Part shown: piece after piece, positions 56,916 to 59,936 of the stretch
Numbering within the stretch: position 1 is the first letter of the stretch
Layout of the letters: each line of letters starts with the position of its first letter
NCBI GenBank assembly: GCA_018650185.1
Contig: JABIGL010000042.1
Location: forward strand, 1-64,000
Source: Chloroflexota bacterium
GTDB taxonomy: Bacteria; Chloroflexota; Dehalococcoidia; Lucifugimonadales; Lucifugimonadaceae
Reading direction: 5' to 3'
Length of the DNA: 64,000 nt
The notes under the pieces: model-generated
Told to the model about the DNA's origin: nothing
Databases searched by the model: none
Seen by the model: only the letters and a program-made list of their open reading frames with translations
Translations under genes and position numbers: made by a program

Positions 56916-57812
56916 TTATGCGGAGCGGCGCTTCCTGCCAAACAATTTGCTGAGCAGGCCACCGACCTTTTCATGGGTCTTTGAGGATTCAGGAGCCTCA
57001 GGTTTGCTCATGGCCTTACGCACTTCGGCGATATTCACACGAGCAAGATCGATAAGCGCTTCGGTCTGCTCTGGCGTGCGTTCCACCGGCTTCGGGGTAG
57101 ATACCTTCATCCCTTTCTCCGCCGCCATCTCTTCCCGAACCTCGGACATCAGTTTCGCAAGTGCTCCCACCTCAGCCAGCTGCGTTTCTCTTGAGTTCAG
57201 CCCTGTTTCTTCTTCCATCTCCCGGAGCATCCTGGTCCGACGTGCCTCTCGGGCCATATGTGCGGCGGCAATTCGGCGTTCTCCGGCCAGTTTCACGTCT
57301 TCAGCATCACGCTCTGCTCGGTGTTGTCGCAATCGTTCAGCGGAATCACGCTTGATCTCGACCAGACCGCGGTACTCCGCGCTCGTCGGATCGTTCACGA
57401 CCGACCGTTCCTGTCGGTGCTCCTGATGCGCCTGTGCCGCCTGTTGTGCAACCGATGTGATCGCATCAGGCCGGTTTCTCTCAACCCTTAAGAGATTTTG
57501 GTCCCGGACGTCTGCGGCCGCATCACGTCGCCCCTTCGCCAGGGTCTGGCGCTCTGTTTCCGGATTGACTCCACGCCGTTTTTCGTCCAGACGTGCGCGT
57601 TCCAGCTCTGCTGCCCGCTCCCTGCGCGTGATCTCAAGCTCGTTGACACGTTCCTGCCGACCCTCGGTACGGTCCTTAAGGTCCTGGAGTTCAAGCGCGC
57701 GTCGTTCCCTGTGTGTGTCACGGGCGCGTCGCATCGACTGAGAGCTATCGGCCCTGTCAGGTCGGTATGTATCCCAATCGGCGCTACGTGATTGGTTTCT
57801 TTTATTCGTCAT
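56916..57812 (-). CDS. Arg/Glu-rich coiled-coil protein, family member 1
   Basis: The 298-residue protein is mostly predicted helix rich in Arg, Glu and Ala, with few hydrophobic residues. Segments include THRERRALELQDLKDR, KRRGVNPETERQTLAKGRRD and NDPTSAEYRGLVEIKRDSAE. The last residues GGLLSKLFGRKRRSA form a short basic amphipathic helix, suitable for membrane or nucleic-acid contact. The gene at 57989 is a clear paralogue. There is no signal peptide or known domain. Function unknown; a scaffold or structural role is a guess. Confidence 0.7.
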   Translation of the reverse strand: MTNKRNQSRSADWDTYRPDRADSSQSMRRARDTHRERRALELQDLKDRTEGRQERVNELEITRRERAAELERARLDEKRRGVNPETERQTLAKGRRDAAADVRDQNLLRVERNRPDAITSVAQQAAQAHQEHRQERSVVNDPTSAEYRGLVEIKRDSAERLRQHRAERDAEDVKLAGERRIAAAHMAREARRTRMLREMEEETGLNSRETQLAEVGALAKLMSEVREEMAAEKGMKVSTPKPVERTPEQTEALIDLARVNIAEVRKAMSKPEAPESSKTHEKVGGLLSKLFGRKRRSA

Positions 57813-57988
57813 ACGACTTTCTGCGGAACGATCGTCTGAGATATTTCCAGCATCCCAGCAAACTGCGTGAACAAAATCAGGGTTAACCGTCGCTCTGAAC
57901 GTCGGATTGCATCACCCGCCGTTGCGTGTTCGCTTTGTCCGACTGGTTCGCAATTCCTCAAAACGGTTTAGCGATGGCGCTGGAGAAA

Positions 57989-58861
57989 TTACGCGGCGCT
58001 AATGATTCCGCGAATCAGTTTTCGGATGAACCCTTGAGGTCCAACCGGTGATTGCGATTCACAATCAGCTTTCTCGGCCACGGGAGCGGGAATCACTTCC
58101 CGTTCGCGGGCGATTTCAAGTTCTTCTTCCAATTCATCCATCGCAGTTGGTGATGGCACCTCGACTGCAGACTTCGGTTTCGATTTCGGGTTACCTAGAA
58201 GTGCAGCGAGGGCACGAATTTCAGATCTATCGACTGCAGGTACGACCGGTTGGCTTCCGCCTTCTAACTCGCGAAGCAGACGGGTCTCCCGAGCCTGTTG
58301 AGCCATAAGTGACGCCGCACCGCGTCGCTCTTCCTCAATTTTTGACTGTTCGGTCTCGCGTTCTGATCGATACTCCTGCATACGCGCAGCAGTCTCGACC
58401 TTAGTTTCAACAAGAGCTTTGTACTGCGCGCCGTTCACATCGGTTGAGGTAGCGAACTCTTCGGCATGTTCCTGAAGTGTCTCGGCAGCTTGTAGTGCCG
58501 CCGTTGCGATGGCATCAACACGATCCGCTTCAAGCCTTAAAAGGTCAGCCTCACGGGCCACGGCCGCTGCGGCGTGCCGTTCCTTTGCCAGAGCTCGGCG
58601 TTCAGTTCCGGCGTCAATACCACGCCGTTCACGCTCCATACGCTCGAATTCAAGTTCAGCTTCACGCACTTCTCGTGTGTACGCGAGATCCTCTGCCCGT
58701 TCAAGCTTGGCTTCTTCGCTGTCCCTGTCGTCGTCAGCTTCTTGTTCTCGGCGCTCACGGTGTGTTTCCTGGGCGCGTTCAGCCGCGGCGGCTTCGATCA
58801 CTTTCCGCTCGAGGTACAGCTCCCAAAGTGAGGGTTCAGGCTGGTCATGTTCCTGTGTCAT
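57989..58861 (-). CDS. Arg/Glu-rich coiled-coil protein, family member 2
   Basis: The 290-residue protein aligns with its neighbour over most of its length: ETHRERREQEADDDRDSE, RRGIDAGTERRALAKERHAA, NGAQYKALVETKVETAARMQ and QARETRLLRELEGG correspond to the same places in member 1. Only the C-terminal third differs, being acidic (EELEEELEIAREREV resembles the same style). It ends GFIRKLIRGIISAA, again a basic amphipathic helix. The two genes are a tandem pair with a 176-base gap. Function unknown. Confidence 0.7.
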   Translation of the reverse strand: MTQEHDQPEPSLWELYLERKVIEAAAAERAQETHRERREQEADDDRDSEEAKLERAEDLAYTREVREAELEFERMERERRGIDAGTERRALAKERHAAAAVAREADLLRLEADRVDAIATAALQAAETLQEHAEEFATSTDVNGAQYKALVETKVETAARMQEYRSERETEQSKIEEERRGAASLMAQQARETRLLRELEGGSQPVVPAVDRSEIRALAALLGNPKSKPKSAVEVPSPTAMDELEEELEIAREREVIPAPVAEKADCESQSPVGPQGFIRKLIRGIISAA

Positions 58862-58888
58862 GTATCTCCCGGAAACAGGAATTGGCGT

Positions 58889-58916
58889 AGAACGATGTTT
58901 GGCGTGCCATCGTTCT
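58889..58916. repeat. Inverted repeat upstream of coiled-coil member 2
   Basis: AGAACGATG at 58889-58897 and CATCGTTCT at 58908-58916 are perfect reverse complements around ten bases. It begins 27 bases before the ATG of the minus-strand gene, so it could be a dimeric repressor operator or a 5'-leader hairpin. The rest of the 337-base gap to the next gene shows nothing else convincing. Confidence 0.45.
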
Positions 58917-59198
58917 GGTGTTCACCCAATGTCTCAAGCGGGGGATCGAAACGAATTGGAGTTATCCCGCGGTCTCAATACGTGGGATGCGTCATCGTGG
59001 AGTCGTTTTCGTTCTTTTCAAGCCCCAAATTACCCGACCTCGAGCTAGCACTGGCCTCGCTAGAAAATCTGTAGGTGGATCGTCCACAAGTCGTTGCCGT
59101 GAGATTGCTTAGCTACTCTGAGCGACTTCCCACTCGTGACTCCACTGGGTGTCTTCTATCGTCGATGGATACCAATATTCCACACACCGGGAGACAAC

Positions 59199-59807
59199 GT
59201 GGGCTTACTCAAATCCGTCAAGTCATCGATCCTCGGCATGCGCTGTGAGGAGACCGTGGGGGCCACGTCCGCGTCCCGGGCTAAAGAAGCGTCGGTCGAG
59301 CTGCGAGCTGAAGACGAAAAGACCGTGGAAAATCGAAAAATGGCGGCCATACTCGCCATACTCAAGGTCTCGCAGCTCGCCGAAAGTCGCCGAGATAAGG
59401 CTGTGGAAGCGGCGACGGATCGTGCCGCATCCGGAAATGTTGACCCGGATGTCCAGCGTCAACTGATGGCCGCTTAACGGGTGCAGGCCGCGGCAAAGGA
59501 CAAGGCGGAGTGGATCAAGCAAGCCAGGGAGAATCAGGGGAAGGCGCTCTCGGCAGCGACGGTGGAAGCCGGTCGGACGGCGAAGATCCGTCGAAAAGAA
59601 CAGACAGAACGGGACGATCCAGGCAACCCTGGACATAAGCCGGAGGAGGTGCGGCGTGCCGATGTTGCGATGGGGATCAAGGCCTACCGCAACGAACGCG
59701 ATGCCGATGAGGCGAACCAGGCCAAACAGCAGGAAGCAGCGATCATTCAGCGAGCAATGGAAGCTCGGCTGGCCCGAAATGCGCGTCTAAGCGGTGATGC
59801 TCCGTAG
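59199..59807 (+). pseudogene. Third coiled-coil family member, interrupted by an in-frame TAA
   Basis: GTG 59199, preceded by GGGAG, opens a frame that stops at TAA 59475-59477 and resumes in the same frame to 59807. The sequence on both sides aligns with members 1 and 2: ASGNVDPDVQRQLMAA, then after the stop RVQAAAKDKAEW, and DDPGNPGHKPEEVRRADVAM, KAYRNERDADEANQAKQQEA. The stop falls where member 2 has the Glu of LAKERHAA, so a GAA to TAA change would explain it. This copy carries an amphipathic segment at its N-terminus (VGLLKSVKSSILG) and no C-terminal one. It is divergent from the pair. Confidence 0.75.
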
Positions 59808-59859: not shown

Positions 59860-59936
59860 TGGTACCCCGTACGGGATTCGAACCCGTGATCTCCAGCTTG
59901 AAAGGCTGGCGTGCTAGGCCGCTGCACCAACGGGGC
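59860..59936 (-). tRNA. tRNA-Glu (anticodon TTC)
   Basis: On the minus strand the 77 bases fold as a complete cloverleaf: acceptor GCCCCGT/ACGGGGT, D stem GTGC/GCAC, anticodon stem CCAGC/GCTGG with loop CTTTCAA (anticodon TTC), T stem ACGGG/CCCGT with loop TTCGAAT. CCA is encoded. The flanking coiled-coil genes make it a possible integration site, though no second copy of its 3' end was noticed. Confidence 0.95.

Follow-up and report, generated by a model that had tools for sequence, protein, structure and literature searches.

A putatively genus-specific islet of predicted long-helix proteins and an ASCH-domain partner beside tRNA-Glu in uncultured Dehalococcoidia

Closest described systems

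MinD/FtsA-type proteins carry a terminal amphipathic membrane-targeting helix on a linker. Two tandem genes, P1 and P2, of an uncultured Dehalococcoidia bacterium (Chloroflexota) resemble this type in that a body is followed by a variable linker and a short conserved basic amphipathic terminal helix. However, together with a third gene, P3, they lack an ATPase or actin-like domain, their bodies are made of long charged helices only, and they have no sequence relation to this type. P3 is reminiscent of PspA/Vipp1/ESCRT-III in that an MG-amphipathic N-terminal helix precedes long helices, but there is no profile similarity, the fold matches are not significant, and in P1 and P2 the segment is C-terminal. 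A small ASCH-domain protein is encoded next to P1, and it can be compared with the YqfB-type ASCH amidohydrolases. The catalytic residues of YqfB are Lys, Thr, Arg and Glu (K21, T24, R26 and E74; PMC9599836). The ASCH domain, a length of about 105 aa and the four catalytic positions are shared with this type, whereas the overall identity to YqfB is just 21%. An operon of an ASCH gene with helical proteins has not been reported in the literature searched.

For the helical proteins, the profiles of Pfam, PHROGs, NCBIfam and PADLOC and a PDB sequence search gave no match, and fold searches yielded no significant relative. This is in agreement with a first-pass annotation of the DNA, which had recognised no family, and the helical family is undescribed in the libraries searched. 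Sequence-based tools give no functional assignment for it.

The helical proteins: homology, predicted body and end segments

The genes are located in a window of 64,000 nucleotides (the whole stretch of DNA that was analysed) from a 3.08-Mb draft genome of 212 contigs, which is 94% complete (G000). The three helical genes are:

56916..57812, minus strand: P1, 298 aa, predicted to have three long charged helices, a variable linker and a C-terminal basic amphipathic helix
57989..58861, minus strand: P2, 290 aa, with an acidic body, paralogue of P1
59199..59807, plus strand: P3, distant paralogue with the same predicted three-helix body and the N-terminal segment MGLLKSVKSSILGMR, reading toward tRNA-Glu

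P1 and P2 had been described as tandem paralogues from the first inspection, and this was verified by BLASTP, which aligned nearly their whole length (37% identity over 295 aa, E 3e-31). P3 had been regarded as a third, divergent and broken copy. Its distant relationship was confirmed by a profile comparison with P1/P2 (97% probability, E 6e-11), which was co-linear across 173 columns including the two conserved elbows described below, and the gene in this genome is indeed one frame with a single in-frame TAA at 59475-59477. The description as a merely broken copy did not hold, since P3 is intact in the sister genomes G005 (199 aa) and G004 (212 aa), and the comparisons indicate a separate conserved subfamily. 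P3 was compared with the G005 gene (dN 0.14, dS 1.74), and the constraint was alike on both sides of the stop, indicating that the stop is recent, polymorphic or an assembly error.

Structure prediction with AF2 placed helices at residues 9-80, 84-139 and 145-202 of P1 and at residues 4-73, 80-136 and 146-194 of P3, with breaks at both elbows and a mean pLDDT of 78; the P1 model has, in addition, a linker of low confidence and a terminal helix of its own. The pTM values were low (0.26 and 0.30), so that the packing of the helices is uncertain, and the terminal segments had low pLDDT. According to these models, the body would consist of three long, highly charged helices that are joined by two conserved Gly/Asp-Pro elbows:

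57528..57578, minus strand: elbow 1 of P1 (RRGVNPETERQTLAKGR), the break between helices 1 and 2 and the best-conserved stretch, aligned with GNVDPDVQRQLMAAER in P3
57357..57398, minus strand: elbow 2 of P1 (NDPTSAEYRGLVE region), the break between helices 2 and 3

The elbows correspond to the block RRG[IV]xxxTERxxLAK and the Y-x-LVE-K region, both of which had been noticed at first reading as common to the proteins. The mean pairwise identity was 67% in elbow 1, 54% in elbow 2 and 43-57% in the helices; it was lowest in the linker (25%) and rose again to 44% in the C-terminal 15 residues. Helices 2 and 3 of P1/P2 matched helices 2 and 3 of P3 (E 4e-7 and 2e-7), and within one protein no helix convincingly resembled another (best E 0.015 in an internal-repeat test). 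The net charge of the body is opposite in the tandem pair, about -19 in P2 and about +8 in P1, and it lies between -5 and +6 in the single-copy relatives.

The first-pass annotation had proposed that the body serves the assembly of a filament or scaffold. The coiled-coil route to such an assembly was not supported by the predicted helices, which showed no 3.5/3.6-residue hydrophobic periodicity (heptad/hendecad) and anti-correlation at lags 4 and 7, in a test of limited power (a PspA control peaked at 3.55-3.7 residues but was not significant as a single sequence). Hydrophobic residues occur all around the helix, a distribution that speaks against long coiled coils. In the regions 57222-58834 and 59250-59790 the hydrophobicity period peaked near 2.9 residues, which is unusual for helices; P was 0.0005 for all six helices, 0.10 for P1/P2 alone and 0.01 for P3 alone, the two groups being homologous. 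A single alpha-helix (ER/K) domain was also considered and rejected, because opposite charges were not in excess from i to i+4 (z between -0.5 and 1.3); among the charge pairs, i+1 alone tended to enrichment.

The sequences known comprise five of the P1/P2 type and three of P3. Their ends were compared with shuffles of the same proteins, using a combined score of basic, amphipathic and hydrophobic character. The two C-terminal segments of the tandem pair are:

56919..56963, minus strand: basic amphipathic segment of P1, GGLLSKLFGRKRRSA, shuffle p 0.0005 on the combined score
57992..58036, minus strand: basic amphipathic segment of P2, QGFIRKLIRGIISAA, shuffle p < 0.0005 on the combined score

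All five C-termini exceeded the shuffles (p <= 0.001), as did the three N-termini of P3 (p about 0.003-0.004), and the position of the C-terminal segment was conserved in 5/5 P1/P2-type proteins. The short basic amphipathic ends that had been noticed at the outset are thus conserved and non-random, and they lend support to the membrane contact that had been suggested for them: the segments may mediate peripheral membrane binding. The segments are short, and those of G005 and G001 are very basic and only weakly hydrophobic, so that they could bind nucleic acid instead.

The islet at tRNA-Glu: layout, distribution and loss

The gene order is nth - tRNA-Glu - P3 <-> (P2-)P1 - ASCH - NIPSNAP/ABM-like - methyltransferase-like, and the unit is the islet tRNA-Glu / P3 <-> (P2-)P1-ASCH. 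Two features lie at its ends:

59860..59936, minus strand: tRNA-Glu(ttc), bordering the islet, 3' end toward P3
56565..56888, minus strand: gene of an ASCH-domain protein of 107 aa, the final one in the P2-P1-ASCH operon, outside the interval of the first-pass annotation

In this genome and in G005, P3 and P1/P2 read away from each other, and P3 and tRNA-Glu toward each other. The arrangement spans two contigs in G004, where P3 adjoins tRNA-Glu on a separate contig, and G001 has a P1/P2-type gene and the ASCH gene alone, without P3 and without a convincing P3 remnant in the gap. The interruption of P3 here and its absence from G001 indicate that it is not strictly needed by P1/P2-ASCH. The synteny that the first-pass annotation had named as a check was found in part: the divergent pair of P3 and P1/P2 is kept at tRNA-Glu, while the tandem of P1 and P2 is present in this genome only, G005 having a P1-type copy and G004 and G001 a P2-type copy.

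The ASCH protein matched Pfam ASCH (PF04266) with 26.8 bits at a curated cut-off of 21.2, and 4/4 copies of the genus were above the cut-off. Its gene starts about 28 bp after the last helical gene in every carrier and is confined, within the genus, to the same four of eight genomes as P1/P2. K17, T20, R22 and E70 are present in all four copies and align with K21, T24, R26 and E74 of YqfB. The putative activity would be compatible with that of an N4-acylcytidine amidohydrolase, at an overall identity to YqfB of only 21%. More distant ASCH relatives occur in other families of the class. Those of one Dehalococcoidia family (f37; L029:1264-1866 and L030:1279-1854) have 41-47% identity and an Ala in place of the catalytic Thr, and their neighbours (L029:1-1155 and L030:3-1102) were judged by eye to be phage-tail/injection-machine-like.

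An Rfam scan of the region matched the tRNA alone, and a sigma-70 promoter scan gave no match. Two non-coding elements were noticed:

59099..59178, plus strand: non-coding block upstream of P3, 71% DNA identity to G005, with invariant runs shared also with G004
57871..57885, minus strand: element TAACCCTGATTTTGT upstream of P1, with a similar copy preceding P2 at 58950-58964

The approximately 110 bp that precede P3 are conserved across three genomes, at a distance at which synonymous sites there are near saturation. The block at 59099-59178, which has no Rfam match, is likely to be a control region of P3 or a leader. The TAACCCTGATTTTGT element has two matches in the window, which is not above chance alone, and G005 shares the conserved block that precedes P1; the element could conceivably be a shared promoter or operator of P1 and P2.

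Comparison with G005 gave a dN of about 0.24 and a dS of about 1.55 for P1, and a dN of 0.13 with saturated synonymous sites for the ASCH gene. The constraint on the flanking methyltransferase gene was similar to that on the islet genes (dN 0.14, dS 1.93). The substitution rates indicate that P1, P2 and P3 are under purifying selection.

The helical family was found in four of the eight genomes of the genus (G000, G001, G004 and G005). No relative was present in the 68 other genomes of the family or among the remaining genomes of a class-level sample of 393, the family, class and phylum samples being overlapping. When about 85,000 species genomes were scanned by pattern, G005 and G004 were alone among the matches listed, and phages, plasmids and viral contigs (IMG/VR) contained no relative of the helical proteins. 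A weak match to 72 residues of a 794-aa frame in G740, which belongs to a different family of the phylum (E 1.4e-4 for a single genome of the 400 sampled), was set aside as a charge-rich similarity. By these searches, the helical locus appears to be specific to one genus of uncultured Dehalococcoidia.

In the non-carriers G002, G003 and G007 the site consists of nth - tRNA-Glu - about 240-260 bp - ABM-like - methyltransferase-like; the contig of G006 stops at the tRNA. Two gene tails persist in the spacer of G003: that of P3 (QRALETRQAPDARQNGEVA-stop), with 68% identity to G005, and, on the opposite strand and separated from it by a few bases, that of the ASCH gene (EVV-stop-CVEFSATPV). Both tails are in the right order and orientation, and both beat all 300 dinucleotide shuffles (p 0.003 each, the floor of the test). 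This shows that the islet was deleted in G003, from inside ASCH to inside P3, and thus that it was lost there and not newly gained elsewhere. G002 and G007 have a weaker P3-like tail (RAGRDIRLKGHTA-stop) with the stop at the matching place (p 0.01-0.02), and no ASCH remnant was found in their spacers. In a tree of the flanking genes the non-carriers were placed among the carriers, while monophyly of the non-carriers was not rejected (AU test, p 0.16). Gain versus loss is therefore settled for G003 by the scar and not by the tree. It follows that the locus is dispensable and that it existed before G003 separated from some, if not all, of the carriers. The comparisons indicate a locus that is real and constrained, yet optional, and that was lost in some members of the genus.

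Possible explanations and meaning

The locus might be what is left of a mobile element, either an integrative islet or a phage satellite, that inserted on the 3' side of tRNA-Glu, was domesticated in the ancestor of the genus and is now decaying, the helical proteins being former element proteins. The position at a tRNA 3' end would fit, as would the absence outside the genus, the stop in P3, the lost copies of P1, P2 and P3, the deletion scar and the one ASCH relative in another family that lies beside a tail-like gene. However, the islet contains neither an integrase nor a further gene of integrase size, the boundaries that were compared showed no flanking repeat, a comparison of filled and empty sites revealed no tRNA-end repeat at the far boundary, and no relative was found in phages, plasmids or viral contigs. 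Purifying selection is strong and all carriers have the locus at the same position, and this origin is considered unlikely. A phage-defence or toxin-antitoxin-like unit, in which the ASCH protein would sense or hydrolyse modified nucleotides or RNA and the cationic C-terminus of a helical effector would permeabilise the membrane, seems quite improbable. The patchy presence with loss, the cationic and amphipathic C-termini, which are like membrane-active peptides, and the kept catalytic residues of the ASCH protein speak for it; but PADLOC gave no match, a single MukB-like match (E 0.035) covers only a long charged helix, it would be unusual for a unit of this kind to have two or three long paralogues, and the flanks (nth, tRNA-Glu, NIPSNAP-like and methyltransferase-like) include no defence neighbours.

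Two further explanations concern the helical bodies themselves. That P1, P2 and P3 are coiled-coil filament or scaffold proteins is very unlikely: long helices are predicted with high local confidence, but a hydrophobicity peak at about 2.9 residues with negative lags 4 and 7 is the opposite of a coiled-coil stripe. Membrane remodelling similar to that by PspA/ESCRT-III, with P3 polymerising on the membrane via its MG-start N-terminal amphipathic helix and its long helices, is hardly probable. Among nine PDB fold matches that P3 gave, five were ESCRT-III or PspA, the P3 N-terminus is similar by eye, and this genome has no PspA_IM30; yet all fold matches had E values of about 5-9 (best 4.9) and TM of 0.2-0.3 with a P3 model of pTM 0.30 and uncertain packing, which gives this negative result little weight, hhalign against E. 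coli PspA gave 0.3% probability, Pfam gave no match at E <= 1, and P1/P2 bear their helix at the opposite, C-terminal end. PspA/IM30 (PF04012), which had no match in the 94% complete G000, was present in 9/14 control genomes.

The explanation that is tentatively preferred, with a probability just short of even, is a dispensable, genus-specific accessory locus of mainly vertical inheritance, which encodes peripheral-membrane helical rods and an ASCH partner. P1 and P2 would attach to the cytoplasmic membrane through a basic amphipathic helix that sits at the C-terminus behind a flexible linker, and P3 through its N-terminal basic amphipathic helix. It is probable that P3 acts jointly with the divergently oriented P2-P1-ASCH operon, and the helical bodies may form a short membrane-associated rod or bundle. 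The ASCH protein would be a soluble YqfB-like hydrolase or an RNA-binding partner, and a joint complex with the helical proteins may exist. A conditional benefit, e.g. under envelope stress or in defence, fits the pattern of loss. It is more speculative, and distinctly doubtful, that the locus forms a two-sided membrane rod system of a new type, an optional trait of the genus in which the same three-helix body is anchored C-terminally in P1/P2 and N-terminally in P3, and in which paired rods direct both anchors to a single membrane or connect two membrane faces, the ASCH enzyme being linked to the system.

Taken together, the analysis documents an orphan family of one genus: its partner gene is conserved, there is evidence of selection, and a deletion scar has been preserved. 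It offers a clean small case of a lineage-specific cluster that is useful enough to be kept under constraint and is nevertheless dispensable. Should the membrane-rod reading be true, the helical proteins would represent an additional kind of protein, in which paralogous bodies carry their anchors at opposite ends.
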